A DNA stretch of 64,000 nt from Flavivirga algicola (GTDB lineage: Bacteria; Bacteroidota; Bacteroidia; Flavobacteriales; Flavobacteriaceae), in contig NZ_JABBHF010000018.1 in assembly GCF_012910715.1 (NCBI RefSeq), forward strand, positions 1 to 64,000. The letters run 5' to 3'. Every line of letters begins with the position of its first letter. Position 1 is the first letter of the stretch. The position numbers were made by a program, and so were the translations under genes. The notes beneath the pieces were generated by a model, which worked only from the letters and a program-made list of their open reading frames with translations, searched no databases and had not been told where the DNA came from. Of this stretch, positions 3,057 to 19,766 are shown in pieces.

Positions 3057-4976
3057 ATGAAAAATAAAAACTACATATTAGTCTGTATCGCTTTAATGTT
3101 AAGCTTTTCTGTATTTTCTCAACAAGGAAAACAGAAAAGAGCCGATACATTATTCAATAAATTCTCTTTTGTAAAAGCTGCAAAAGTTTACAGAGAACTT
3201 ATTCAAAATAATTATAATAAGGATTATGCAACCCGTCAATTAGCAGATTGCTATGCTTATTTAAGAGACCCAAGAAATGCTTCAAGATATTATAAGAATG
3301 TCGTTAAGCAAGACAATGTGCCTATTGAGTATTACTACAAATATGCACAATCACTTAGGGGTATGAAAAAATATGACGACTCCCAAATTTGGTTAAAGCG
3401 TTTCAAAGATTCTGGAGGTGTCGTAAATGCCAATGATTTTTCTAAAGATATCAATTTTATCACCAGTGTTTTTGGAGCTAAACAACAGTATTTTTTAGAT
3501 AGGGTTCGTTTCAACTCAAAATATAGTGACTTTGGTGCCTTTGAGCATGATGGTAAAGTATATTTCGCGTCTTCCAGAGATGAAGGTGTTTCTGTAAAAC
3601 GGCTTTATGGTTGGAATGAGCAACCCTTTTTAGATGTCTACGTTACTGAGGTCGGATCTAGAAAAAATGTTGATCATACAGGAAAGTTAAAAGGAGACGT
3701 TAACTCCATTTATCATGATGGGCCAGTGACGATTACAAAGGATGGCCGTACCATGTACTTTTCTAGAAATAATTTTACAGAAGGTGTTGAAGCTAAAGAC
3801 AAAAAGGGTTTAACAAACATGAAGATTTATAGAGCGACTTTGATTGATGGTGAATGGACAAATATAGAAGATTTATCAATTAACAGTGATGATTTTTCCA
3901 CACAACACCCCGCTTTAAATATTGATGATTCCAAGTTGTATTTTACATCCGATAGACCTGGAACCAGAGGAGGTTCAGATATATGGTATGTCAACATACA
4001 ACCCGATGGTACTCTAACAGACATACAAAATGTTGGAGATATCGTAAATACCGAAAGCGCTGAAGGATTTCCATTTATAAATAACGAAGGTGTTTTATTC
4101 TTTTCTTCAGATGGACATACGGGTTTAGGCTTGTTAGATATTTTTGCAACGATTAAAGGAGAAGATGACGATAGCATAGCTGATGTTATAAATTTAGGTG
4201 TCCCTGTAAATTCCAATAAAGACGACTTTTCATTTTCAATGAATCCAAATGGCATTACAGGTTATTTTGCATCCAATAGAAAAGGTGGTCGTGGTAGTGA
4301 TGATATATATGCTTATCACAGAGAACCTGTTCTTCATGTTGAAGGAGTTGTAACAGATGCTATTAACATGAATCCTATTGCTAATTCTGTTATCACTTTG
4401 TTTGATGATAAAGGTAACAAGATAGCCAACATGATAACCGATGAAAATGGTTATTATCAAATAAACATAGACAGAAACAAAGACTATAAAATTGTTGCTA
4501 GTCAAGAAAAATATATTGACGACTACAGAACATTTACCTCTAAAAACATTCAGACAGAACTTGTCACTATTAATGCTAATTTATTATTAAATCCAGTTCC
4601 TAATGTTATAAAGCTTGCAGAGCTAAACACTATTTATTTTGATTTCAATAAATATAATATTAGAGAAGATGCTGCTTTAGAACTTGATAAAATAGTTAGT
4701 CTCATGCAAAACGATTATCCTGATATGGTGATTCGAATTGAATCTCATACAGACTCGAGAGGTAACCTTACATACAATGACAAATTATCTATAGATAGAG
4801 CAAATTCAACCTACGAATATTTAATTTCCAAAGGCATTGCTCCAGAAAGAATTACTGAACATCAAGGTTTTGGTGAACGTAGATTAACAAATGGTTGTGA
4901 AGATGGACAAGACTGCGAAGAAGAAGAGCATCAATTAAATAGACGTACGCAATTTATCGTTGTAAAAATGGAATAA
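3057..4976 (+). CDS. OmpA-family protein with PD40 propeller
   Basis: 639 residues with a signal peptide cut near FSQQGKQ. The order is a TPR-like helical region (about 25-115), PD40-type beta-propeller blades (about 160-420; FASSRDEG, YFSRNNF, YFTSDRPGTRGGSDIW, YFASNRKGGRGSDDIY), a carboxypeptidase-regulatory-like Ig domain (about 425-510), and an OmpA peptidoglycan-binding domain (about 525-636; YFDFNKYNIR, ESHTDSRG, NRRTQFIV). This architecture matches the periplasmic PorE-like/OmpA proteins found with PorP/SprF and T9SS adhesins. It should anchor the outer-membrane partner to peptidoglycan. The CEDGQDCEEEEHQ loop is typical of the family. Third gene of the adhesin operon. Confidence 0.9.
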   Translation: MKNKNYILVCIALMLSFSVFSQQGKQKRADTLFNKFSFVKAAKVYRELIQNNYNKDYATRQLADCYAYLRDPRNASRYYKNVVKQDNVPIEYYYKYAQSLRGMKKYDDSQIWLKRFKDSGGVVNANDFSKDINFITSVFGAKQQYFLDRVRFNSKYSDFGAFEHDGKVYFASSRDEGVSVKRLYGWNEQPFLDVYVTEVGSRKNVDHTGKLKGDVNSIYHDGPVTITKDGRTMYFSRNNFTEGVEAKDKKGLTNMKIYRATLIDGEWTNIEDLSINSDDFSTQHPALNIDDSKLYFTSDRPGTRGGSDIWYVNIQPDGTLTDIQNVGDIVNTESAEGFPFINNEGVLFFSSDGHTGLGLLDIFATIKGEDDDSIADVINLGVPVNSNKDDFSFSMNPNGITGYFASNRKGGRGSDDIYAYHREPVLHVEGVVTDAINMNPIANSVITLFDDKGNKIANMITDENGYYQINIDRNKDYKIVASQEKYIDDYRTFTSKNIQTELVTINANLLLNPVPNVIKLAELNTIYFDFNKYNIREDAALELDKIVSLMQNDYPDMVIRIESHTDSRGNLTYNDKLSIDRANSTYEYLISKGIAPERITEHQGFGERRLTNGCEDGQDCEEEEHQLNRRTQFIVVKME

Positions 4977-5020
4977 TAACAAAGCTTTAATCAACTATGT
5001 TTAAATAAACAAAAACGACA

Positions 5021-5038
5021 ACTAATTAACTAATTAGT
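5021..5038. repeat. Perfect 8-bp inverted repeat between the OmpA paralogs
   Basis: ACTAATTA, a 2-nt spacer AC, then TAATTAGT, located 30 nt before the start of the second OmpA-family gene. It is too AT-rich and has no T-tract, so it is not a convincing terminator. It could be an operator or a chance palindrome in AT-rich DNA. Confidence 0.35.
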
Positions 5039-5067
5039 GTAGGTTTATAATTAAAACTAATGACCCC

Positions 5068-6990
5068 ATGAGATTAAGAAATTATTTATTAACAAGCATC
5101 ATATTGCTAACAAGCCTACCCGTACTTGCTCAATATGGTTCTCAAAAAAAGGCGGATAACCTATTTAACAAATTTTCGTTTGTTAGTGCTGCCCAAGTGT
5201 ATCATAATCTTATAGAAAAAGACTTTAATGCCGATTATGCAACCAGACAATTAGCAGATAGCTATGCCTTTATGAGAAATCCAGATAGCGCTGTAGTATA
5301 CTATAAAAAAGTAGTGGAACAGCCCAATGTGCCTATAGCATACTATTACAACTATGCCCAAGCACTAAGAGGCGTAAAAGCTTATAAAGAATCTCGTGTT
5401 TGGTTAAAACGTTATAAAAAGGCTGGAGGAGAAATAAATGACGAAAAGTTTTTAAAAGATTCAGATTTTATTAACTCTATTTTTAATGCAAAGCAACAGT
5501 ATTTTTTAACTGATGTTAATTTCAATTCAAAATATAGCGATTTTGGAGCTTACGAACATGATGGTCATATTTACTTTGCTTCGTCGAGAAATACAGGGGT
5601 TTCAACAAAACATATTTACGGTTGGAACGAAGAACCTTTTTTAGACATCTATGTAACAGATAAAAGTGTTAATGATAGTATTATAGATCACAAATCTAAA
5701 CTTAAAGGTGATATAAATACTATTTATCATGAAGGTCCAATAACCATAACTAAGGATGGTAAAACCATATTTTTTTCCAGAAACAATTTCAGCAAAAATG
5801 TTTTAGGAAAGGATGAGGAAGGAATGACCAACCTTAAAATTTATAAAGCTTCCTTAATTGAAGATGAATGGACAAATATTGAAGAATTGCCTTTTAACAG
5901 TAACGACTTCTCTAATGGACATCCCGCACTAAATAACGATGGAACAAAATTGTATTTTGCTTCCAATATGCCTGATGGTTTTGGTGGGACAGATATTTAC
6001 TATGTAGATATAAACAATGACGGTTCTTTTGGTAAACCTCAAAACCTAGGAAATGTAGTCAATACAGATAAAAATGAAAGGTTTCCATTTATAAATAACG
6101 AAGGTGTTTTATTCTTTTCTTCAGATGGGCACCCAGGCTTAGGTTTATTGGATATTTTCGGAACCGTTTCAGACAAAGACAATAATATAATTAGTGTTCT
6201 TAACCTTGGGGTTCCTGTGAACTCAAGTAAAGATGATTTTTCATTCTTCATGAATGAAGATGGTTTGTCTGGTTATTTTGCATCGAACAGAAATGGAGGC
6301 ATTGGTAGCGATGATATTTATGCATATGACAGAATTCCACAATTAAAAATTGAAGGTACCATTACAGACATAACTACAAATACACCTGTGCCAAATGCAA
6401 TGGTTACACTACTTGATAGTAACAATAAAGAAATTGCACGTTTAGAAACAGATGACGATGGAAATTATGAAATAAATATAGATAGAGATACCGACTATAT
6501 TATAAATATTAAAAAAGATAACTATATAGAAGACACCAGACAGGTCTCCTCTAAAGGCCTAGAAAATAAAGTTAGAAGTATTACTGCCGATTTTAATTTA
6601 AACCGTATAGTAAAAAAGGTAACCCCAATAACAGAACTCTACCCTATTTATTTTGACTTTAACAAGTTTGATATTAGACGTGACGGTACTGTTGAATTAG
6701 ATCGAATCGTTAATTTAATGATGAATACGTATCCAAGTATGATCATTAAAATAGAATCACATACAGATTCTAGAGGTTCTTCGAAATACAATGACAAACT
6801 ATCTTTAGACAGAGCAAATGCTACTTACAAGTATTTAGTAGATAAAGGAGTGGACCCCAATAGAATTACTGAATATAAAGGTTATGGTGAGCAAAAATTA
6901 ACTAATGATTGTGATGATACCATGGATTGTACAGAAGAACAGCATCAAGCCAACAGGCGTACACAATTTATTGTGATTAAAATGGAATAG
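5068..6990 (+). CDS. OmpA-family protein with PD40 propeller, second copy
   Basis: 640 residues, a full-length tandem paralog of the upstream gene with the same order: signal peptide (LPVLAQYGSQKK), TPR-like region, PD40 propeller (YFASSRNTG, FFSRNNF, YFASNMPDGFGGTDIYYV, YFASNRNGGIGSDDIYAY), regulatory-like Ig domain, and C-terminal OmpA domain (YFDFNKFDIR, ESHTDSRG, NRRTQFIVIK). A 91-nt gap with a palindrome separates it from the first copy, so it may have its own promoter or be the last gene of the adhesin operon. One 47-nt segment is identical to the first copy. It presumably also anchors PorP/SprF-type proteins to the cell wall. Confidence 0.88.
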   Translation: MRLRNYLLTSIILLTSLPVLAQYGSQKKADNLFNKFSFVSAAQVYHNLIEKDFNADYATRQLADSYAFMRNPDSAVVYYKKVVEQPNVPIAYYYNYAQALRGVKAYKESRVWLKRYKKAGGEINDEKFLKDSDFINSIFNAKQQYFLTDVNFNSKYSDFGAYEHDGHIYFASSRNTGVSTKHIYGWNEEPFLDIYVTDKSVNDSIIDHKSKLKGDINTIYHEGPITITKDGKTIFFSRNNFSKNVLGKDEEGMTNLKIYKASLIEDEWTNIEELPFNSNDFSNGHPALNNDGTKLYFASNMPDGFGGTDIYYVDINNDGSFGKPQNLGNVVNTDKNERFPFINNEGVLFFSSDGHPGLGLLDIFGTVSDKDNNIISVLNLGVPVNSSKDDFSFFMNEDGLSGYFASNRNGGIGSDDIYAYDRIPQLKIEGTITDITTNTPVPNAMVTLLDSNNKEIARLETDDDGNYEINIDRDTDYIINIKKDNYIEDTRQVSSKGLENKVRSITADFNLNRIVKKVTPITELYPIYFDFNKFDIRRDGTVELDRIVNLMMNTYPSMIIKIESHTDSRGSSKYNDKLSLDRANATYKYLVDKGVDPNRITEYKGYGEQKLTNDCDDTMDCTEEQHQANRRTQFIVIKME

Positions 6991-7018
6991 TATAAGCTTA
7001 GTTCAATAATAATTATGT

Positions 7019-7058
7019 AAAAGCCATCAGAAGATTTCATCTTATGACGGCTTTTTTA
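7019..7058 (+). terminator. Rho-independent terminator of the adhesin/OmpA operon
   Basis: Long interrupted stem: AAGCC, TCA and AAGAT on the left arm pair with ATCTT, TGA and GGCTT on the right arm around a TTC loop, then a run of T residues. It lies about 30 nt after the stop codon of the second OmpA gene. Confidence 0.85.
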
Positions 7059-7088
7059 ATTATAATAGGGCGCCATATTAAGGTATAA

Positions 7089-7119
7089 ATAAAAAATCCT
7101 CCCATTTTATTGGGAGGAC
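7089..7119 (-). terminator. Terminator of the CAP-domain lipoprotein gene
   Basis: Perfect 8-bp stem TCCTCCCA/TGGGAGGA with a 6-nt loop at 7097-7118. The six A residues on its left read as a T-tract on the minus strand, so it terminates leftward transcription about 135 nt after the stop codon at 7253. Confidence 0.75.
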
Positions 7120-7252
7120 CTTTACCTAAAGCTAAATTCAATAACGATTAAGTTATCAATACATAACCTATTTTAATTTCACAATACACAATGCCATCAT
7201 GTAAGTTTTACTAAAATTAGGCTATACTTTCAATTGCTTAAATAAAAGCAAT

Positions 7253-7750
7253 TTATTTTTTTATAAAGATGTTAGTAAAATACCATCTTCCGTTATCATT
7301 TTTTTCAGCCGAAATATCAAAATTTGTAAAATCGCCTTCGATAGTACCCCTATGGCCCTCACTCTTAATCCAAGCCTTAACAACAGTTTCAGCAGAACTA
7401 TATCCGTATGCTACATTCTCAGACACTTTTTTAGCACCAGCATTCGCTTTTAAGTAGTTACTACGGGTATAAAAATTATCATGTGATACCTGATCATTAT
7501 CAATCATATAATCTGTATGGCTAAATGCCACAGATTTTACTACAGACATATCATTTAAAGGATTCAACCCCAATGATAATCTATAATCATTTATAAGCTC
7601 TAGAATATCTATTTCTATGTCTTTGGCTTCTTGAGCAACAAGATTTAACTCAACAGCATCTGTTTTATCATCTATGCTGTCTGTTGTACATGAAGTAAGT
7701 ACAAATACAGCCAACAATGCCAAAAAAGGCAGTTTGATTACTGATTTCAT
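7253..7750 (-). CDS. CAP-domain (SCP-like) lipoprotein
   Basis: 165 residues. The N-terminus has a lipoprotein signal with the cysteine in VLTSCTTD at residue 21. The remainder is a CAP/SCP (YkwD-type) domain: INDYRLSLGLNPL, the FSHTDYMIDND segment with the conserved His, the SENVAYGYSSAE motif, and a WIKSEGHRGTIEG segment with the second conserved His, then NGRWYFTNIF. Family members are secreted proteins of mostly unknown activity, some binding lipids or acting as peptidases. It stands alone between terminators. Inferred to sit in the outer or inner membrane facing the periplasm or surface. Confidence 0.88.
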   Translation of the reverse strand: MKSVIKLPFLALLAVFVLTSCTTDSIDDKTDAVELNLVAQEAKDIEIDILELINDYRLSLGLNPLNDMSVVKSVAFSHTDYMIDNDQVSHDNFYTRSNYLKANAGAKKVSENVAYGYSSAETVVKAWIKSEGHRGTIEGDFTNFDISAEKNDNGRWYFTNIFIKK

Positions 7751-7913
7751 AAGTAGGTAATTTAGATTAGGTTTCGTAAAATTAGCAGCCTACTCTGAAG
7801 TAAATGTTAAATAAATGTTAAAATCGATTAAAAACGTGCTTTTTGTCGTATTATTTTGTTTTTTATCGACGAAGTGTTATTTCAACCGACAATACACACA
7901 CTTAAACGATGAT

Positions 7914-8561
7914 TTAAGGGGACAGTCGGTCTATTTTCCAATTATAATCAGGTTGAAGTATAAACCTAATTCTATCATGCAATCTATTGGGGCGCCCTTG
8001 CCAAAACTCTATTTCTGAAGGTCTTACTATGTAACCACCCCAGTGAGTTGGTCTAGGTATTTCTTTTCCTTCAAATTCTTTTTCCAATTCTAAAAGTCTT
8101 TTTTCAATAGCATCTCTGCTTTCAATCACTTCACTTTGTTTTGAAACTAATGCGCCTAATTGACTCCCTCTTGGTCTGGACTCAAAATAGCCATCACTTA
8201 AATTTTCAGCAATCTTTTCTGTTTTTCCTTTTATAATAACTTGGCGTTCTGCGCCATGCCAAAAAAAAGACAAACAAACATTTGGGTTTTGGGCTATAGC
8301 CTTGCCTTTTTCACTGTTGTAATTCGTATAAAAAATAAAACCTTCATAGGTAAAACGCTTCAGAAGTACAACTCTATTTTTGGGGAATCCATCTAATCCA
8401 ATAGTAGATATTGTCATTGCGTTCGTTTCATCTTTAGTAAAGAATTTATCAACTTCGTAAAACCATTTCTGGAATAATTCTATTGGGTTTTCTGGCACAT
8501 CCTTTAGTAGTAATTCGTGCCTTTCGTAAGACTTTCTATAATTGCTTAAATCCTTTTCCAT
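7914..8561 (-). CDS. pdxH: Pyridoxamine 5'-phosphate oxidase
   Basis: 215 residues, the normal length for this FMN enzyme, which oxidises pyridoxamine or pyridoxine 5'-phosphate to pyridoxal 5'-phosphate in cytoplasmic vitamin B6 synthesis and salvage. Visible motifs include the N-terminal YERHELLL substrate-lid region, AMTISTIGLDGFPKNRVVLLK, FIFYTNYNSEKGKA (FMN binding), SRPRGSQLGALVSKQS, PRPTHWGGYIVRPSEIEFWQ and the terminal RLHDRIRF segment ending in WKIDRLSP. It is apparently monocistronic. A CAAAAATA box (TATTTTTG on the minus strand) lies at 8576-8583 just before the start and may be its -7 element, without a clear -33 partner. Confidence 0.96.
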   Translation of the reverse strand: MEKDLSNYRKSYERHELLLKDVPENPIELFQKWFYEVDKFFTKDETNAMTISTIGLDGFPKNRVVLLKRFTYEGFIFYTNYNSEKGKAIAQNPNVCLSFFWHGAERQVIIKGKTEKIAENLSDGYFESRPRGSQLGALVSKQSEVIESRDAIEKRLLELEKEFEGKEIPRPTHWGGYIVRPSEIEFWQGRPNRLHDRIRFILQPDYNWKIDRLSP

Positions 8562-8600
8562 AGACTACAAAATAACAAAAATATTTCTTGAGTATTGAAA

Positions 8601-8621
8601 TTTTGTAAAACATCGTAAATT
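8601..8621 (+). promoter_or_regulatory. Upstream element shared by the tandem small-protein genes, copy 1
   Basis: A 21-nt element (TTTTGTAAAACATCGTAAATT) about 30 nt before the first 139-residue gene matches 17 of 21 positions in the element before its paralog at 9239-9259. The TAAATT part resembles a degenerate TAnnTTTG -7 box, so this could be the promoter, an activator site, or both. Confidence 0.4.
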
Positions 8622-8650
8622 AGCATTATTACTATCAATCAAAATTTTTT

Positions 8651-9070
8651 ATGAAATTTGAAAACTCTCCGTTCAGCAAAACGATTAATTATTACAAGTT
8701 AGAAATGTCTTTTGGTTATTTCTACCTCTGTAAAAAATTCATAATATCAGAATTACATGCTGGTATTCATTTAGATTGGCCTAAAATCCAAGAAGTTGCC
8801 AAAGATGTTTTAAATTTTTACGGTAAAGATGATAAAGTGGGCTACATATCCAACAGAATTAATTCTTATTCGGTGGACCCACAAGTTTGGACTAAAGCTG
8901 AAAAATATAATAGAAATAACATGGTGATAGGTGGTGCTATTATATATTACAATGATATGATGTATAGGAATGCATCTTTAGAAAAAAGATTTTCAAAAAT
9001 TCAGGTTCTTCCGTGCCTATCTTTAGATGAGGCTATAGATTGGGTACTCAACTTAGAGGCTATAAATTAA
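8651..9070 (+). CDS. Conserved small protein, tandem copy 1
   Basis: 139 residues, no signal peptide or membrane segment. Unknown function. The pattern of short strands and amphipathic helices, with a segment ISELHAGIHLDW followed by YISNRINSYSVDPQVW and a C-terminal LSLDEAIDWVLNLE, resembles the SpoIIAA-like/STAS-SEC14 fold seen in many flavobacterial single-domain proteins; that assignment is tentative. It is about 60% identical to the neighbour at 9274, with near-perfect conservation of the words SELHAG, SNR-NSYS and ASLEKRFSKI. Same strand and similar upstream element suggest a duplication that included the regulatory region. Confidence 0.7.
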   Translation: MKFENSPFSKTINYYKLEMSFGYFYLCKKFIISELHAGIHLDWPKIQEVAKDVLNFYGKDDKVGYISNRINSYSVDPQVWTKAEKYNRNNMVIGGAIIYYNDMMYRNASLEKRFSKIQVLPCLSLDEAIDWVLNLEAIN

Positions 9071-9238
9071 GCCAAAAATTTTCCAATCTTTATTTGTAAA
9101 TAGAGATTGTTATTGTGACACAAAATTTAGATTTTCAATTTAAAAACCCCCTTCTTTTCTCATAAGATTACACTTACTCGATTTATTATACATCGATTAC
9201 AATAAAATAAGAAAATAATGTTTTTGAAAGTATAAAAA

Positions 9239-9259
9239 TTTTACAAAACGTTGTAAATT
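9239..9259 (+). promoter_or_regulatory. Upstream element shared by the tandem small-protein genes, copy 2
   Basis: TTTTACAAAACGTTGTAAATT, 17 of 21 positions equal to the element before the first copy. It ends 14 nt before the ATG, so if TAAATT is the -7 box the leader is extremely short. Confidence 0.4.
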
Positions 9260-9273
9260 CGTACCGCCCTAAA

Positions 9274-9693
9274 TTGCCCTATATGAAATTTGAAAATTCT
9301 ACCTATAGTAGTACCTTAAAATATTACAAATTAGAAATGCCATTTGGAAACTTCTACTTCTGCGAAGAACTCATAATATCAGAATTACATGCTGGTTTAC
9401 ACGTAGATTGGTCCAAGATTGAGATACTAGTTAAAGAAATCATAGATTTTTATGGTAAAGATGCTAAATTAGGATTTATATCCAACAGAGTAAACTCATA
9501 TTCTATAGATCCTCATAATTGGATCAAGGTCGAACAGTACAATTTAATTAAGAGTTGTGCCATTGTATATTACAATCATATGATGTATATGAATGCTACT
9601 TTAGAAAAAAGGTTCTCTAAAATTAAAATTCACCCTTGTCTATCTTTAGATGAAGCTATGGACTGGATTTTAGACTTGGAAGAAGTGAATTAA
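9274..9693 (+). CDS. Conserved small protein, tandem copy 2
   Basis: 139 residues after choosing the first Met (MPYMKFENS); the Met at codon 4 (9283) aligns exactly with the start of the first copy and may be the true start. No export signal. It is a diverged paralog of the preceding gene (SELHAGLHVDW, FISNRVNSYSIDPHNW, ATLEKRFSKIKIHPC, LSLDEAMDWILDLE). Possible STAS/SEC14-like fold, function unknown. Its last 4 nt overlap the end of the convergent rnz gene, leaving no room for a terminator between them. Confidence 0.7.
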   Translation: MPYMKFENSTYSSTLKYYKLEMPFGNFYFCEELIISELHAGLHVDWSKIEILVKEIIDFYGKDAKLGFISNRVNSYSIDPHNWIKVEQYNLIKSCAIVYYNHMMYMNATLEKRFSKIKIHPCLSLDEAMDWILDLEEVN

Positions 9694-13444: not shown

Positions 13445-15052
13445 ATGAGATTAAGAAATCAAGCAAATGGTGTTTCATTGCATGTCATAGCAGGAACCCA
13501 TGTTGTATTACTTTGTTTGGATGTAAACGAAACTGCAAGAAAAGAATTATTAGGTTTTTTGCTAAAACGAAAAGAAATTGCTTCAGGAAAATCAAAAACA
13601 CTTAAAGGGTTTAAAGAATTTGAAAAAAACGGCAATAAAAATGATGAAAGTTTAATTCAATCTTTTCTTTGGGGTGATTATACCGCAGTACCCAATACCA
13701 ATTACGAATATTCTGCAACGCCAGTTTACGGGACTCCTGAAAACAGAAAAAACGGTAGTGAAATTAAAGTAGAGATTATTACCGAAAATCCAAACTCAGG
13801 AGAACACGGTGTCTTCTTTAATCGTGGTACAGTAGGTCAAGCCTATGCTAGAAAATTTGACAATAAAAACCCCGAAGAAATCCCAAATCATGAAGCCTAT
13901 AAATGGTTATCCCGAGGTTTGGAGGAAGCCATGTTGGCTTTTATAGGGGAAGCAAAAGGAAAAGATTATGCCTTGCGTGTAGCTGCTTACGAATTTGATT
14001 ACGTACCAGTTATTCAAGCTTTATACGATGCTTCAAAAAGAGGCGCAGATGTAAAGATTGTTTACGACAGATCTAAAGCTGGCCCTTGGAAAAATACGGA
14101 TGAAGCTATAGCCAACGTCCCTGGTGTTGAAAAATTAATGATCCCCAGAACAGCAAACTCATCCATAAAACATAATAAATATATTGTATTATTATATAAA
14201 GGAAAGCCAATAGAAGTATGGATGGGTTCCACTAATTTTACAAAAGGTGGAATTTTTGGACAATCAAATGTCGGCCATATAGTAAGGGACGAAATCATCG
14301 CTGAGGCATATTTAGAATATTGGACACGACTTTCCAAAGATCCTCAGATGAAAGAAATTCGTCCTTTAAATGAAGACCACACCCCTACTCCAAAAAAAGG
14401 TGTACCAAAAGGAATTACTCCAATTTTTAGCCCCAGACCTGATTTAAGTGTTTTGGATTGGTACGGAAAACAAATTGAAGAAGCAAAACAATCTATTGGT
14501 TTTACAGCAGCTTTTGGAGTGAATAAGGATTTTGCAGATATCATGAGCAAAGAGGACGATTCACTTCGATACATTTTATTAGAACATGAAGGGAATACCT
14601 TTGATGAATTTAAAGATACCCCAAACAATAGAATTGCTCTAGGAGCTGTGATTAATGACCAAGAAATAAAAGAAGAAGGTCTAAAAAACTGGGAAGCCGA
14701 ACATCTAACTGGCTTAAACGATCATGTTAAATATTTGCATACCAAATATCTTTTTGTAGACCCATTGACAGATGATCCAATCCTTATTACTGGATCTGCT
14801 AATTTTTCAAAAGCATCAACACAAAATAACGATGAGAATATGATCATTATTCGTGGTAACACCAATGTAGTGGATGTGTATCTTACAGAGTTTACCCGTT
14901 TATTCAATCATTTTGAATTCCGCGATCAATTAGCAAACAATGGATTTGATGAAGTTTATTTTAGCGATTATTTGGCTACAGATAATTCATGGACCAATAT
15001 TTATTTCAAAAAAGGAACACAACACTATATGGAACGTGAACTCTTTAGCTAA
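13445..15052 (+). CDS. Phospholipase-D-like protein (first gene of accessory operon)
   Basis: 535 residues, no signal peptide, so probably cytoplasmic. Two PLD catalytic motifs are visible. The first, around H243, reads HNKYIVLL and then GSTNF: the His and Lys are present but the usual Asp is Leu. The second, around H432, reads HTKYLFVD followed by GSANF and is complete. The N-terminal ~200 residues (GTHVVLLCLDV, IQSFLWGDYTA, HGVFFNRGTVGQAYARKF, WLSRGLEEAM) are a distinct domain that accompanies this PLD subfamily. PLD-fold enzymes hydrolyse or transfer phosphodiesters (lipids, nucleic acids); the substrate here is unknown. The next gene starts 14 nt downstream and the set appears to be one operon. 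Confidence 0.85.
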   Translation: MRLRNQANGVSLHVIAGTHVVLLCLDVNETARKELLGFLLKRKEIASGKSKTLKGFKEFEKNGNKNDESLIQSFLWGDYTAVPNTNYEYSATPVYGTPENRKNGSEIKVEIITENPNSGEHGVFFNRGTVGQAYARKFDNKNPEEIPNHEAYKWLSRGLEEAMLAFIGEAKGKDYALRVAAYEFDYVPVIQALYDASKRGADVKIVYDRSKAGPWKNTDEAIANVPGVEKLMIPRTANSSIKHNKYIVLLYKGKPIEVWMGSTNFTKGGIFGQSNVGHIVRDEIIAEAYLEYWTRLSKDPQMKEIRPLNEDHTPTPKKGVPKGITPIFSPRPDLSVLDWYGKQIEEAKQSIGFTAAFGVNKDFADIMSKEDDSLRYILLEHEGNTFDEFKDTPNNRIALGAVINDQEIKEEGLKNWEAEHLTGLNDHVKYLHTKYLFVDPLTDDPILITGSANFSKASTQNNDENMIIIRGNTNVVDVYLTEFTRLFNHFEFRDQLANNGFDEVYFSDYLATDNSWTNIYFKKGTQHYMERELFS

Positions 15053-15066
15053 AAAGAGTTCAAAAC

Positions 15067-15657
15067 ATGTACACAATTAATCTTTTAAACACACAATTTA
15101 TGAATACAGAACTTACTTCTATTGGGGGGGCTGTCTGCAATGAAACACTTTCTGCTGGTTTAATTTTTGCCGAAGGACAAAGCCTTACACATCAAAATAA
15201 AGAAGCCTTATGGGAAATCTTTGAAGCCATAGGAGCCAGTTGGGCTAATACCATTTATAATTCCAATAACCAAAGGAGCTCATGGTATGAAATGCTAAAA
15301 GCAAAAACCGAAAATGCTCCTAATTATGCAGGAGAATATGTAAATGCTATTTATGTGATTAATGAATTAAAAGCCATGTATGGAACCGAAGATGCTTATA
15401 AAAAGTTATTCTTTGAAAGTGGCATAGACAATAATGCACCACCAACTACCCGATTAGCTCATTGTAAAATATATGTGGTTAATGAGTTTATCCGAATGCA
15501 AATTACTGCTGGCGGATTCAAGAGTTGGGGAACCAAATATGATGGGGAGCAAGCAAGGAATTATCATGGGTTCTTAGGAGGAACACGATACAATCGTACG
15601 CCCAGAGTACGTGCTTATAATCCAGATACTAATAATCATAAAAACGATCAGGAATGA
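15067..15657 (+). CDS. Putative small partner subunit of the GMC oxidoreductase
   Basis: 196 residues without a recognisable signal peptide; a second Met at codon 12 (MNTELTSIGG) may be the start. I do not recognise a family with certainty. The helical middle (EALWEIFEAIGASW, AIYVINELKAMYG) and the C-terminal pattern NEFIRMQITAGGF, then NYHGFLGGTRYN and VRAY, recall the small chain of FAD-dependent sugar dehydrogenases, which sits beside a GMC-type large chain. The stop overlaps the start of the GMC gene by 4 nt (ATGA), a sign of translational coupling and fixed stoichiometry. Assignment as accessory subunit is inference from position and weak similarity. Confidence 0.6.
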   Translation: MYTINLLNTQFMNTELTSIGGAVCNETLSAGLIFAEGQSLTHQNKEALWEIFEAIGASWANTIYNSNNQRSSWYEMLKAKTENAPNYAGEYVNAIYVINELKAMYGTEDAYKKLFFESGIDNNAPPTTRLAHCKIYVVNEFIRMQITAGGFKSWGTKYDGEQARNYHGFLGGTRYNRTPRVRAYNPDTNNHKNDQE

Positions 15658-17327
15658 AAAACCAGTTTGACTATATAATTGTTGGTGGTGGCGTTGCAGC
15701 GGCAACTACAGCCAAAGGTTTGTTGGAACACAGACACGATACCTCCATATTAATTTTGGAAGCAGGTCCCGAAATCATAGCCAAAGACAGGCGTTTTTGG
15801 TGGGATTATATTACCCGAGGAGAAAGACCATATACCTTTACTTACGATCAAAAATTTGAAGCCGATTCTACAGGCAACATCGATTATCAAACCGATGGAG
15901 TTCGTGTAAAAGCATACGGGGGATCCACTATGCACTGGGGAGCCTGGTGTTTACGTTTTAGACCAGAAGATTTTAACCTGTTCACTAATACAGGAGAAGG
16001 AGCAGATTGGCCTATTAATTATGAAGATCTAGAAACCTATTACAATGATGCTGAAGCGTTTTTATCTGTATGTGGTGACGATAATGCTAATTGGGTTCCA
16101 AGATCGAAACCGTACCCTGTTCCTCCTTTCGAATGGACTGCTGCCGATGGAGAAATGATTAAGGCTTGGGAACAATTGGATGTTGTATACCAAGATGGTG
16201 ATATAAACCCTGGAACAAAAAACAAGATAAAATCTGGAAAAATGCCTATTGCACGTTACCGAAAATGTATGACAACAGGAACTTGCAAATATTGCCCTAT
16301 TGGCGGTCGGTTTAATGCTCAATATGTATTAGATGATTTAAAAAACGATACACGGTTCATCAATTTTGAGGTTAGAATAAACGCACCCGTACACCAAGTG
16401 AATGCTTCCAGTAAATCGAAAATAGAATCTGTAACATACACAGATAATCTTAGCGGTAATGAGTATACGGTTAAAGGCAATACAATAATCTTAGCATCTG
16501 GCGCCTACAATGTTCCTAAACTATTAAGAGCTTCAAAAAATGAATTCTGGAAAAATGGTATTGGAAACGATCATGATTTAGTAGGGCGTTTTGTGGTATC
16601 ACATTCTATGCTAAATGTGGTTGGTAAAGCTCCATCAAACCCTAATGGTTGGTTTCAGGAATACGATTTCCCAACCCTAATGTCGCACAGTTATAATACC
16701 AAAGAGCATCAAAAAAAAGGAAAGATTTTTATGTTTAAAAATCGTACGACTCCAAATGTTGATATTGCTCAATTAATGATTGATGGAAAAACCAGAGAAG
16801 AGATAGATGAAATAGTCTATGGAGAAATGACTATTAATATTCAAGCTTTTTTAGAAGAAAAAGGTAAATACAGCAATAGATTAGAGGCTAAACCTGGTAA
16901 GGACCGTTTTGGTCTGCCGCAAACAACAGTCCATTTTAGCAGAACGGAAGAAGAAATGAAAAATGCCAATGATCGCTTAAAATTATTGGAACAGATCATT
17001 GAAAAAATGGGACTGGAAGTCATATCCTCTCGGGTGGATAAACCAGGAGGGCATCATACAACAGGAACTGCTCGTATGGGAACAAGTCCAGAAAATAGCG
17101 TAACCGATAAATTCATGAAGGTACACGATACTGATAATCTATACGTATGTTCCAATGCTGCTTTCCCTACAGGAAGTGCCGTAAATCCTACACTTACACT
17201 TACGGCAATGGCTTTTAGATTAGTAAATCATTTTATTGAAAAACAAACAAACCAAACTAATTCCAAGACAAATAATGTTAACAAAAGAAATACAATTCAA
17301 GAATGCCTTTCAGGAGAAAGCAACTAA
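15654..17327 (+). CDS. GMC-family FAD-dependent oxidoreductase
   Basis: 557 residues, cytoplasmic by sequence. The N-terminal dinucleotide motif is IIVGGGVAAATTAKGLLE with the third Gly replaced by Ala; the FAD loop GGSTMHWGAWCLRFRPEDF is present; the catalytic end has HH at 467-468 in GGHHTTGTARMG and SAVNPTLTLTAMA. A cysteine group C205-x5-C211-x2-C214 lies in the substrate domain, a pattern shared with gluconate/sugar dehydrogenase-type GMC proteins. Family members oxidise alcohols or sugars and pass electrons to oxygen, quinone or a partner protein. The substrate is unknown. It is coupled to the small protein upstream and overlaps the ferritin-like gene downstream; its last ~25 residues are an Asn/Thr/Lys-rich tail lying within that overlap. 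Confidence 0.88.
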   Translation: MKNQFDYIIVGGGVAAATTAKGLLEHRHDTSILILEAGPEIIAKDRRFWWDYITRGERPYTFTYDQKFEADSTGNIDYQTDGVRVKAYGGSTMHWGAWCLRFRPEDFNLFTNTGEGADWPINYEDLETYYNDAEAFLSVCGDDNANWVPRSKPYPVPPFEWTAADGEMIKAWEQLDVVYQDGDINPGTKNKIKSGKMPIARYRKCMTTGTCKYCPIGGRFNAQYVLDDLKNDTRFINFEVRINAPVHQVNASSKSKIESVTYTDNLSGNEYTVKGNTIILASGAYNVPKLLRASKNEFWKNGIGNDHDLVGRFVVSHSMLNVVGKAPSNPNGWFQEYDFPTLMSHSYNTKEHQKKGKIFMFKNRTTPNVDIAQLMIDGKTREEIDEIVYGEMTINIQAFLEEKGKYSNRLEAKPGKDRFGLPQTTVHFSRTEEEMKNANDRLKLLEQIIEKMGLEVISSRVDKPGGHHTTGTARMGTSPENSVTDKFMKVHDTDNLYVCSNAAFPTGSAVNPTLTLTAMAFRLVNHFIEKQTNQTNSKTNNVNKRNTIQECLSGESN

Positions 17328-18411
17328 ATTAAACAATGTAAAAGAATTAATTCTACACTCAAAATCTGTAGAAAATGTTGAAGAAGACAAATTACATGTT
17401 TTAAAAGAACTTTTAAATAGTGCTGTCGTATTAGAATTCGCAACCATTCCCATCTATTTACAGGCCATGTGGACCATTAAGGACAATGAAAATGAAGTTG
17501 CAAAATCAATTCGCAATATTTTTCAAGAAGAAATGCTTCATATGGCTATGGTCTGCAACATGATTGTAGGAATTGGGGGTGAGCCAAGAATATATAATAC
17601 CGAAAACAGGTTAAAGTTTCCTTCTGGCCTTCCTGGGGGTGTACACCCAGAGCTTTACCTATACCTAGAGGGTTTAAATGATTGTTCTCTTAGAAATTTC
17701 ATGGAAATCGAGTTACCAGAGGAAATTGCAGAAATATATGATTATGAAACAAAAGAACTGGTAAGCATCGGTGGACTTTGTGATCAAGATGGAAAAATTG
17801 GGACAACAAAACACATTCAAAGTCATGAACATAATACGACCATAGGTGAGCTGTACGACCGTATTAATGAATTATTTCAAGAATTGCAACCCAAAATGGA
17901 TGTCGAACGCCAATTAGCAGGTCCTTTATCCTGGTGGGTCATGGCAGATGCCGAAAGTGTTTCTAAAGCCATTGATATGATTAAAGAACAAGGTGAAGGA
18001 TCTGAAAATGTAACACCTGCTAGTACGGGCATGGATAATCTAGCTCACTTTTATCGCTTTTGGGAGGTTTATTACCAAAAGAAAATTGTTCAAGAGGGAG
18101 ACAAATATTACTTCAAAGATCCCGTGCCGAGACCAGAAACTCACAATATCGCTAGAATACCAGAAGGAGGTTATAAAAAGGAAGATGTTTCTCCAAAAGT
18201 TTGGTATTTATTGAACAGTTTCGATGAAGTTTATACAGATCTGGTAAAGTTTCTAGAAGATGCTTGGGCTATAAATGGAAGAGGTCAAGCTGCTTTAGTA
18301 AATGCCATTGAGGTCATGTTTAAACTAGAACAATATGCATTACCACTTATGCAAATACCAATTCCAGGTAAAGAGGGGCTACATTACGGGCCATGTTTTA
18401 GAATGCTATAA
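17275..18411 (+). CDS. Stand-alone VioB/RebD-type ferritin-like protein
   Basis: 378 residues from MLTKEIQF; a longer frame from 17236 adds 13 residues of low-complexity sequence and is less likely. The start lies 53 nt inside the GMC gene. Putative metal ligands are E54 (VVLEFATIPIYLQ) and E85/E86/H89 (FQEEMLHMAMV), the diiron-like pair of the ferritin-like domain found at the C-terminus of VioB, StaD and RebD (iminophenylpyruvate dimer synthases). A second conserved helix carries LAHFYRFWEVYY and the end KEGLHYGPCFRML is typical. VioB/RebD couple two oxidised amino acids; here the domain is alone with a GMC oxidase, so the reaction is probably different. No export signal. Confidence 0.82.
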   Translation: MLTKEIQFKNAFQEKATKLNNVKELILHSKSVENVEEDKLHVLKELLNSAVVLEFATIPIYLQAMWTIKDNENEVAKSIRNIFQEEMLHMAMVCNMIVGIGGEPRIYNTENRLKFPSGLPGGVHPELYLYLEGLNDCSLRNFMEIELPEEIAEIYDYETKELVSIGGLCDQDGKIGTTKHIQSHEHNTTIGELYDRINELFQELQPKMDVERQLAGPLSWWVMADAESVSKAIDMIKEQGEGSENVTPASTGMDNLAHFYRFWEVYYQKKIVQEGDKYYFKDPVPRPETHNIARIPEGGYKKEDVSPKVWYLLNSFDEVYTDLVKFLEDAWAINGRGQAALVNAIEVMFKLEQYALPLMQIPIPGKEGLHYGPCFRML

Positions 18412-18525
18412 CTAAAATGAATTTCATTCTTCTAAACACAAGGTAACACTATTTCACAAAAATAGATTCAAAAAAATTGACAACATGTTTGGAAGAAAAT
18501 TAATTAATAATTTAAAAATATAAAA

Positions 18526-18927
18526 ATGGGAAGTTTTGTAGAAATTAATGACACATTACAACTAACAACAGAACAGGGGTTTCCTGTTCATGTTTTCGAT
18601 CTGGAAAAACACCAGAAAACGCCAATAACACTTAAAGATGTTGAAGGTATGGTATTTGAATTTAAAGACAAGCCAAGTGCCCGAATTTTTCAATTAGATC
18701 CTGTTAGGGTTTATTTTGTGCACAACATAGATGGTAAGTGGCTGTTTTGGGGACGTGTTTTAATTCAGTCTCAACATATTCAAAAAGTATTAAATAGTGA
18801 TGGCTCTTGGGATGGTGAATCTTGGAAAACCTCAGGCACTTATACGATATTGAATGTATACGATCCTGAATATCAACACACTTTTACCCTAAATGAAGCT
18901 CCTGATGACAGGAATTATTATAAATAA
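18526..18927 (+). CDS. Unknown small beta-rich protein, last gene of accessory operon
   Basis: 133 residues, no signal peptide. Predicted mainly beta-strand (VRVYFVHNIDGKWLFWGRVLIQSQ, GTYTILNVYDPEY). I do not recognise a family. It follows the ferritin-like gene by 114 nt on the same strand and precedes a hairpin. Codon use is like its neighbours. It may be a binding or regulatory partner of the operon; no function can be stated. Confidence 0.65.
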   Translation: MGSFVEINDTLQLTTEQGFPVHVFDLEKHQKTPITLKDVEGMVFEFKDKPSARIFQLDPVRVYFVHNIDGKWLFWGRVLIQSQHIQKVLNSDGSWDGESWKTSGTYTILNVYDPEYQHTFTLNEAPDDRNYYK

Positions 18928-19105: not shown

Positions 19106-19705
19106 ATGAAAAATGAAATGACCTCTGAAAGACTAGAGGCCTTTAGCGATGGTGTACTAGCTATTATTATTACCATTATGGTTTTAGAACTAGAAGCACC
19201 AAAAGAATATACCTTAGAAGCTTTTTTTGAAATCGTACCAACATTTATTAGCTATTTGGTAAGTTTCTTATATGTTAGTGTCTATTGGGTGACTCATCAT
19301 CAATTATTTAAAATTGCAGAAAAAATAAATGGAAAAGTCTTATGGTCAAATTTATACTTATTATTTTGGCTATCAGTCATCCCATTTACAACTGGTTGGA
19401 TTGGACAAGGTAATCATCACACAGATGTTGTTCCTGTGGTACTATACGGTTTTGTACTTCTTATGAGTCAGTTGTCATTTCTATTACTAAGAAATTCTAT
19501 TATTAAAATTCACGAAAAAAAATCTCCAATAGCGGTTCATTTTAATAGGTTAACTATGGATTTTGCTTGTGTATCCATTTATGTTATTGGATTATCTTCA
19601 GCATTTTTAAATACGTATATCTCTATGGCTTTGTTTTTATTAGTAGGCTTACTTAAAGTTGTTGAACTAAATTCTATATCAAAAAGAATACAATCTATAT
19701 ATTAA
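19106..19705 (+). CDS. TMEM175-family (DUF1211) potassium channel-like protein
   Basis: 199 residues with about six hydrophobic segments. The first helix carries the diagnostic RLEAFSDGVLAI motif followed by ITIMVLELEAP. Bacterial TMEM175 proteins form potassium-permeable tetramers, in which this first helix lines the pore. Later segments include FISYLVSFLYVSVYWVTHH, typical of the family. The gene stands alone, convergent with rpsA. The substrate ion is inferred from family knowledge only. Confidence 0.88.
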   Translation: MKNEMTSERLEAFSDGVLAIIITIMVLELEAPKEYTLEAFFEIVPTFISYLVSFLYVSVYWVTHHQLFKIAEKINGKVLWSNLYLLFWLSVIPFTTGWIGQGNHHTDVVPVVLYGFVLLMSQLSFLLLRNSIIKIHEKKSPIAVHFNRLTMDFACVSIYVIGLSSAFLNTYISMALFLLVGLLKVVELNSISKRIQSIY

Positions 19706-19735: not shown

Positions 19736-19766
19736 ATAAAAAAAGCCTTCAAAAAATTGAAGGCTT
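19736..19766 (-). terminator. Terminator of rpsA
   Basis: AAGCCTTC (19743-19750) and GAAGGCTT (19759-19766), perfect 8-bp stem with an 8-nt loop. The A-run on the left is a long T-tract on the minus strand. It ends leftward rpsA transcription 25 nt after the stop codon and may also act weakly on the TMEM175 gene. Confidence 0.85.

Follow-up and report, generated by a model that had tools for sequence, protein, structure and literature searches.

VioB and RebD carry the ferritin-like domain PF12902 and have flavoenzyme partners, in the VioA/VioB and RebO/RebD pairs. A stand-alone PF12902 protein is encoded in an operon of Flavivirga algicola, next to a flavoprotein of the GMC oxidoreductase family. 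The operon lies in a 64,000-nucleotide (nt) stretch (GCF_012910715.1, contig NZ_JABBHF010000018.1, positions 1-64,000 of the forward strand), which was analyzed as a whole and is referred to as the window. For the GMC protein, the closest described systems are dehydrogenase complexes dependent on flavin adenine dinucleotide (FAD), such as BcGDH. According to the available part of PMC6719666, Cys212, Cys218, and Cys222 of BcGDH hold a 3Fe-4S cluster, FAD is apparently bound to His105, and the small subunit carries a twin-arginine signal for the pair.

The gene set of F. algicola is a variant of the FAD/3Fe-4S dehydrogenase complexes. We tentatively propose that it may well encode a cytoplasmic FAD-dependent dehydrogenase complex in which the ferritin-like protein (FER) takes over from the cytochrome c acceptor, with O2 or peroxide receiving the electrons. 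The features of the locus are as follows:

13445..15052, + strand: PLD, PLD-superfamily protein of 535 amino acids (aa); N-terminal region without a family match
15067..15657, + strand: P2, the small partner (185 aa from its probable start, 15100), likely to be the small subunit of GMC
15654..17327, + strand: GMC oxidoreductase of the FAD glucose dehydrogenase/fructose dehydrogenase (FAD-GDH/FDH) type, as judged from PDB matches and aligned residues
17275..18411, + strand: FER, stand-alone PF12902 ferritin-like protein of 378 aa (PF12902, 7.4e-46)
18526..18927, + strand: P5, 133 aa, a family without a match, kept at all 13 related loci described below
19106..19705, + strand: TMEM175-family protein (PF06736, 1.7e-30), the sixth member of the neighbourhood
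19743-19766, + strand: terminator-like hairpin 3' of the TMEM175 gene, with 10 pairs, the most of any site

The original prediction had joined the first five open reading frames (ORFs) into one oxidative operon; all five were confirmed at these positions, and the PLDc_2, GMC_oxred_C, and PF12902 families were matched.

The sequence places the GMC protein in the FAD-GDH/FDH group. Besides the Pfam match to GMC_oxred_C (1e-20), its best PDB matches, over the whole length, were FAD glucose dehydrogenase (7.5e-44) and fructose dehydrogenase (3.4e-40), followed by pyranose oxidases in partial alignment. Residues C205/C211/C214, H94, and H468/N511 were invariant in 7 aligned sequences. The 3Fe-4S cysteine motif was present in all 13 GMCs examined, and the Asn of the His/Asn pair also in the GMCs of locus L032 and genome G320 (L and G numbers denote the loci and genomes of our collection). 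C205, C211, C214, and H94 of the window align with Cys212, Cys218, Cys222, and His105 of BcGDH, the spacing of the last Cys pair being one residue shorter, and the conserved residues predict that the GMC protein holds a 3Fe-4S cluster.

P2 gave no significant match in Pfam, NCBIfam, or PDB. Its homologues are encoded directly before GMC in flavobacteria, on Methylorubrum and Rhizobium plasmids, and in G598, i.e., at every P2 locus read apart from the doubtful one in G530; the G530 match (1.7e-4, in a 780-aa frame) was set aside, as no GMC adjoins it. The G598 homologue (L032) has a twin-arginine-like signal followed by Cys, with a PF10518 match (E 0.0099, 16.2 bits) below the cut-off of 22.7. 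The neighbouring genes resemble those for a TRAP transporter and for sugar enzymes (the signal-like, TRAP-type, and sugar-enzyme-like labels in this work were assigned by eye). No FER was present in the 19 kb fetched around it, the rest of the G598 genome not having been searched for FER. In view of its constant adjacency to GMC and of the distant homologue bearing a twin-arginine-like signal, P2 most likely serves as the small subunit of this dehydrogenase.

The stand-alone ferritin-like domain expected from the original prediction was recovered at 157.2 bits, against a PF12902 cut-off of 22.3. Residues E54, E86, H89, E192, E241, H258, and E264 were invariant in 8 aligned FER sequences; this pattern fits a two-iron site, and the residues are candidate diiron ligands. 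The flavobacterial FERs clustered in the FER tree with PF12902 proteins that are BNR-fused or come from Streptomyces and Acaryochloris (95/96), apart from the alphaproteobacterial P2-linked FERs, and the P2-linked FERs did not form one group. In this tree, 10 of the 19 inner branches are unresolved, the G391 row is very long, and the P2 counts, though independent of how the other groups are named, depend on which rows were placed in a group (Vio group counts were not used); with these limits, it fits repeated recruitment or replacement of FER.

The triad of a small subunit, GMC, and a PF12902 FER was found in Bacteroidota, Alpha- and Gammaproteobacteria, and one cyanobacterium. Triads with another small-subunit family occur on plasmids of R. 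etli, Gloeothece, Pseudoalteromonas, and S. meliloti, as well as in genomes G210, G320, and G391; the GMC frame of the S. meliloti triad is broken. The seven small subunits of this second family are mutually homologous. The PF12318 match was above the cut-off in G320 and G391, just below it in G210, and absent from R. etli, Gloeothece, and Pseudoalteromonas. PF12318 matches came from three of 395 Bacteroidota genomes, with one exceeding the cut-off; each of them adjoins GMC and a PF12902 protein. On the four triad plasmids, the partners include GH15 or glucan 1,4-alpha-glucosidase, iolE, and sugar isomerase genes, joined in three by MBL and TPP-enzyme genes. Plasmid records with a FER match numbered 167 and 166, from which 17 neighbourhoods with FER or P2 were chosen by hand and read. 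A GMC gene or fragment stood beside FER in 10 of them (L018, L019, L020, L025, L073, L074, L079, L080, L082, and L084), and no GMC was seen beside FER in the other seven (L021-L024, L078, L081, and L083).

A cytoplasmic location had been predicted originally, and the lack of a twin-arginine signal on P2 in a pattern test agreed with it. The test, which is not a dedicated predictor, was applied to 22 triad small subunits including that of the window (12 flavobacterial, 3 alphaproteobacterial, and 7 of the second family; those of L008, L009, and L020 were left out), and none had the signal. It was present in 20/20 Gluconate_2-dh3 proteins of relatives, which represent another family and are the 20 of 30 matches that had a locus. 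A gene for a multiheme cytochrome c subunit was likewise not seen nearby: CxxCH motifs were absent from all window ORFs of 60 aa or more and from 18 of the 21 loci scanned; in L018, the CxxCH ORF overlies the GMC gene in another frame.

The missing twin-arginine signals, the scarcity of CxxCH, and the conserved FER residues are the grounds for the electron path that we suggest: from FAD to the 3Fe-4S cluster, on to a diiron FER, and finally to O2 or peroxide. GMC, stabilized by P2 as the small subunit, would oxidize an alcohol or a sugar-like substrate at FAD and pass the electrons to the 3Fe-4S cluster. FER, presumably of the diiron type, would stand in for cytochrome c and deliver them to O2 or peroxide. 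More speculatively, PLD would probably prepare or release the substrate through phosphodiester cleavage, and a DyP-type peroxidase, which some relatives encode within the block and F. algicola at another place in its genome, might consume any H2O2 formed. The genes, residues, and associations were observed; the cofactors, the complex, and the electron path are what we infer from them.

The five genes are real and intact, are under purifying selection, and are inherited as a unit. All five had dN/dS values of 0.02-0.11 against L003, L004, and L012, at high dS (0.6-3.3); P5 (0.02-0.04) and GMC were the most constrained of the set. Thirteen related loci were collected by FER similarity in the genome collection; they come from near relatives, Flavobacteriaceae by record titles. 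The order PLD-P2-GMC-FER-P5 was intact in all 12 loci long enough to show it. A TMEM175-like gene followed downstream on the same strand in 13/13, also where the outer flanks differed (in L003 as two frames), and pyrRB and rpsA flanked the block in few of the related loci. Of 14 loci (L034 included), 13 had an SRPBCC gene, which separates FER from P5 in nine. Thus, the conserved unit is larger than five genes, with the TMEM175-like and SRPBCC genes belonging to it. An Lcl_C-domain protein and a DUF6265-like protein were each encoded within or next to the block at 7/14 loci; at 5/14, the PLD-GMC-FER block contained, or was directly followed by, a DyP peroxidase-SRPBCC-cupin module. In comparison with these 14 loci, the window block has none of the SRPBCC, Lcl_C, DUF6265-like, or DyP module genes. 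A DyP-SRPBCC-cupin module was found on another contig of the same genome, where it adjoins a divergent PLD paralogue (L076, G000:C5:90000-108000, 5020-9642).

The original prediction viewed the genes as one system, and the co-occurrence check bore this out. When PLD, P2, FER, and P5 were searched singly in the genus (12 genomes, the F. algicola one included), all four turned up in one and the same set of 6 genomes, the other six lacking every one of them; six genomes can be chosen from twelve in 924 ways (C(12,6)), a figure that is not a p-value, as the genomes are related. DyP was found in three of the 12, all among the operon-bearing six, too few to weigh. FER at E<=1e-10 was present in 4 of 395 Bacteroidota genomes, F. 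algicola included; P2 was present in one of these 395, F. algicola itself, and in 6/299 family genomes, one of them doubtful. In the genus member G628, the set sits between other genes, so it occupies two different chromosomal sites in the genus and looks like an accessory island.

Heme peroxidase genes were found within the GMC-FER block in several lineages. In Gloeothece, a DyP gene lies beside the triad; in G391 (L089, G391:C81, 420-5310), genes for an animal-type heme peroxidase, a PF12318 small subunit, GMC, and PF12902 form one run; the third case is that of the 5/14 flavobacterial loci. It is conceivable, though on the doubtful side, that these systems constitute a new class, with an all-cytoplasmic route from FAD through 3Fe-4S and diiron FER to O2 or peroxide, which arose on more than one occasion as a PF12902 protein took over from the exported cytochrome c branch of sugar dehydrogenases, and in several lineages came with a heme peroxidase using the peroxide.

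Several observations weigh against the proposed cytochrome-free complex. The twin-arginine comparison is confounded by family, P2 has one homologue without a FER nearby, and 12 of the 22 subunits are close relatives. In two rhizobial triads, the gene directly upstream of P2-GMC-FER (L019 8659-9972 and L074 6633-7952) codes for a protein that has a signal-like N-terminus and a single CxxCH; that of L019, the one tested, showed weak Cytochrome_P460 similarity (0.018). In the genus, DyP accompanies the operon in only 3/6 genomes. By sequence, P2 could not be related to the PF12318 or Gluconate_2-dh3 family, profile comparisons being negative: hhalign gave a probability of 1.7 against the PF12318-type set and 0.1 against Gluconate_2-dh3, with shallow profiles. 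The structure model of P2 was poor (pLDDT 48.8, mostly helical), gave no fold match (Foldseek best E 1.7), and was not used as evidence. For FER, both iron binding and contact with GMC are predictions; E264 is replaced by Gln in the FERs of Gloeothece and Pseudoalteromonas, and a pattern search did not recover the candidate last-helix motif from G210, G320, and G391. Finally, PLD relatives are held in 81 plasmid records, and the seven neighbourhoods read, those of full-length relatives, all lacked GMC-FER.

A different role for FER would follow the pattern of RebD and VioB: instead of accepting electrons from GMC, it would process the reactive product or the H2O2 that arises from GMC activity, and the operon would be a small biosynthetic pathway in which tailoring or binding falls to SRPBCC, cupin, and DyP proteins. 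We consider this unlikely. PF12902 is shared with VioB and RebD, and the relatives do carry SRPBCC, cupin, and DyP genes. PF12902 genes were also found next to a weakly VioB-like gene family and ebo genes. The available part of PMC4417212 places PF12902 genes beside lodA/lodB genes in fungi. However, the VioB model TIGR04492, which is in the NCBIfam library, gave no match to the 378-aa FER at E up to 1, and FER groups with the BNR-fused, Streptomyces, and Acaryochloris proteins, not with those linked to VioB or ebo. Moreover, the operon has no amino-acid oxidase, its GMC is of the sugar dehydrogenase type, and four other triads have GH15-type, iolE, and sugar isomerase genes around them, as parts of sugar or cyclitol operons. 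An indole or alkaloid product, in line with one option of the original prediction, was rejected on the lack of an amino-acid oxidase and of a VioB match.

PF12902 proteins free of GMC were found beside ebo genes, fused to BNR/Ycf48-like repeats, or in neither setting. In L024 (6209-15766), L039 (3877-12261), and L083 (4875-14900), a large, weakly VioB-like protein and a separate PF12902 protein are encoded beside ebo genes, annotated as such in L024 and L083 and recognized by eye in L039; the large protein matched TIGR04492 at 2.4e-7 in L024 and 5.2e-4 in L083. The long proteins of L021 (6219-8966) and L022 (6264-8993) are not full-length VioB but consist of BNR/Ycf48-like repeats, an Ig-like part, and PF12902. 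Radical SAM genes and genes for an FAD monooxygenase or a tryptophan halogenase lie in the vicinity of both fusions.

Within the set, PLD has the loosest association. Its predicted fold was borne out by the Pfam match (PF13091 PLDc_2, 2.4e-22) and by the presence of two HxK motifs, H243/K245 and H432/K434, in 7/7 aligned sequences, the second with an Asp (D439) and the first without; in the Hymenobacter relative (L040) and in the paralogue encoded by F. algicola itself (L076), the second motif alone was detected by the pattern used. A PLD is encoded in the Methylorubrum triad as well, at 22-26% identity. The Hymenobacter PLD relative has a DyP gene upstream, and the one on S. meliloti pSymA has a GMC gene about 4.5 kb away, with only short stretches in common with the triad GMCs.

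An anti-phage or conflict system, in which a PLD-type nuclease and a redox module would travel on accessory islands, seems improbable. It would suit the patchy presence (6/12 genus genomes) at two different chromosomal sites. The PADLOC scan of the six proteins gave PLD-fold matches for PLD, the best to DISARM DrmC (6.4e-11), and matches of 0.0031 or weaker for the others; it revealed no DISARM or other defence-system genes besides PLD. Some alphaproteobacterial plasmid triads lie near genes for IetA/IetS (2.8e-70 and 2.4e-29, L019), a ThsB-like protein (8.1e-78, L074), or SIR2 (2.1e-11, L018), but the density of defence genes was not controlled for, and PADLOC matches were also obtained for 4/10 proteins from other plasmid loci, one of them a PLD relative. 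This proximity is a lead, not a result. Moreover, the nearest neighbours of the block in the window are the housekeeping genes pyrR, pyrB, and rpsA, and the relatives add metabolic-looking genes. Least probable is that neighbouring genes with separate functions were kept together by vertical descent in Flavobacteriaceae: the 13 loci are near relatives found by close FER similarity only, and PLD, P5, and TMEM175 have no proven tie to the GMC chemistry, but the order is kept across several genera with different flanking genes, the four searched proteins are all-or-none in the genus, and P2-GMC-FER recurs in Alphaproteobacteria, once with PLD.

The tight coupling noted originally stood in part: the order of the five genes is kept, but two of the junctions had to be revised. 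The P2 ORF starts at window residue 12 or 18 in nine aligned flavobacterial relatives, which thus lack the first eleven residues; the true start is therefore probably 15100, and the PLD-P2 gap would be 47 nt instead of 14. FER starts at ATG 17275, the ORF listing giving TTG 17236 as the first start. The 53-nt GMC/FER overlap is not conserved, as GMC ends 21 nt before FER in L003 and 18 nt before it in L005. P5 had no significant Pfam, NCBIfam, PADLOC, PDB, or plasmid match, genomes beyond the genus being searched only via the 13 loci; its reading as a PUA/EVE-like barrel was dropped, the structure model being unusable (pLDDT 46.6).

In the window, pyrR/pyrB lie upstream of the block and rpsA downstream, on the other strand (named by reading of the sequences). 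Promoter-like sites numbered 26, vs. 29.8 in shuffles, and terminator-like sites 10, vs. 3.6 (standard deviation 2.0); no Bacteroidota-type -33/-7 pair lay outside coding sequence. These findings say nothing firm on transcription. Elsewhere in the window, 3057-4976 and 5068-6990 encode adjacent paralogues with 639 and 640 aa and a full-length identity of 60%.

No description of a PF12902 protein with a GMC partner was found in the literature, most subscription papers being outside the search, and the available parts of PMC6515984 and PMC13001252 say nothing of a GMC-FER pair. If the cytochrome-free complex is real, it would give a function to stand-alone PF12902 proteins, explain a nameless small-subunit family, and open a path by which an iron protein links a sugar-type flavoenzyme to oxygen. 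Glucose sensors are a field of interest for FAD/3Fe-4S dehydrogenases (PMC6719666, available part), hence a natural cytochrome-free variant could have practical use.

Altogether, the locus resembles three kinds of known systems and differs from each. With the BcGDH-type FAD complexes acting on glucose, fructose, or sorbitol (PDB 6a2u; FDH 7w2j), it shares the FAD-anchor His, the three 3Fe-4S Cys, the His/Asn pair, and a small protein encoded next to GMC. Unlike them, it has neither a twin-arginine signal nor a CxxCH gene in the window, its operon includes a PF12902 gene, and its small subunit has no detectable homology to theirs. With VioB and RebD (TIGR04492 iminophenyl-pyruvate dimer synthase and chromopyrrolic acid synthase), it has in common PF12902 and a flavoenzyme partner, whereas FER is a stand-alone protein, does not match the VioB model, and is paired with GMC instead of an amino-acid oxidase. 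The GH15-GMC-FER-small subunit-iolE-isomerase operons of rhizobia, Pseudoalteromonas, and Gloeothece have the same triad of small subunit, 3Fe-4S-type GMC, and FER, also without a twin-arginine signal and, in the three loci scanned (L025, L073, and L079), without a CxxCH ORF. Those operons combine the triad with a PF12318-like small subunit and sugar/cyclitol genes, whereas that of F. algicola combines it with PLD, P5, and TMEM175.

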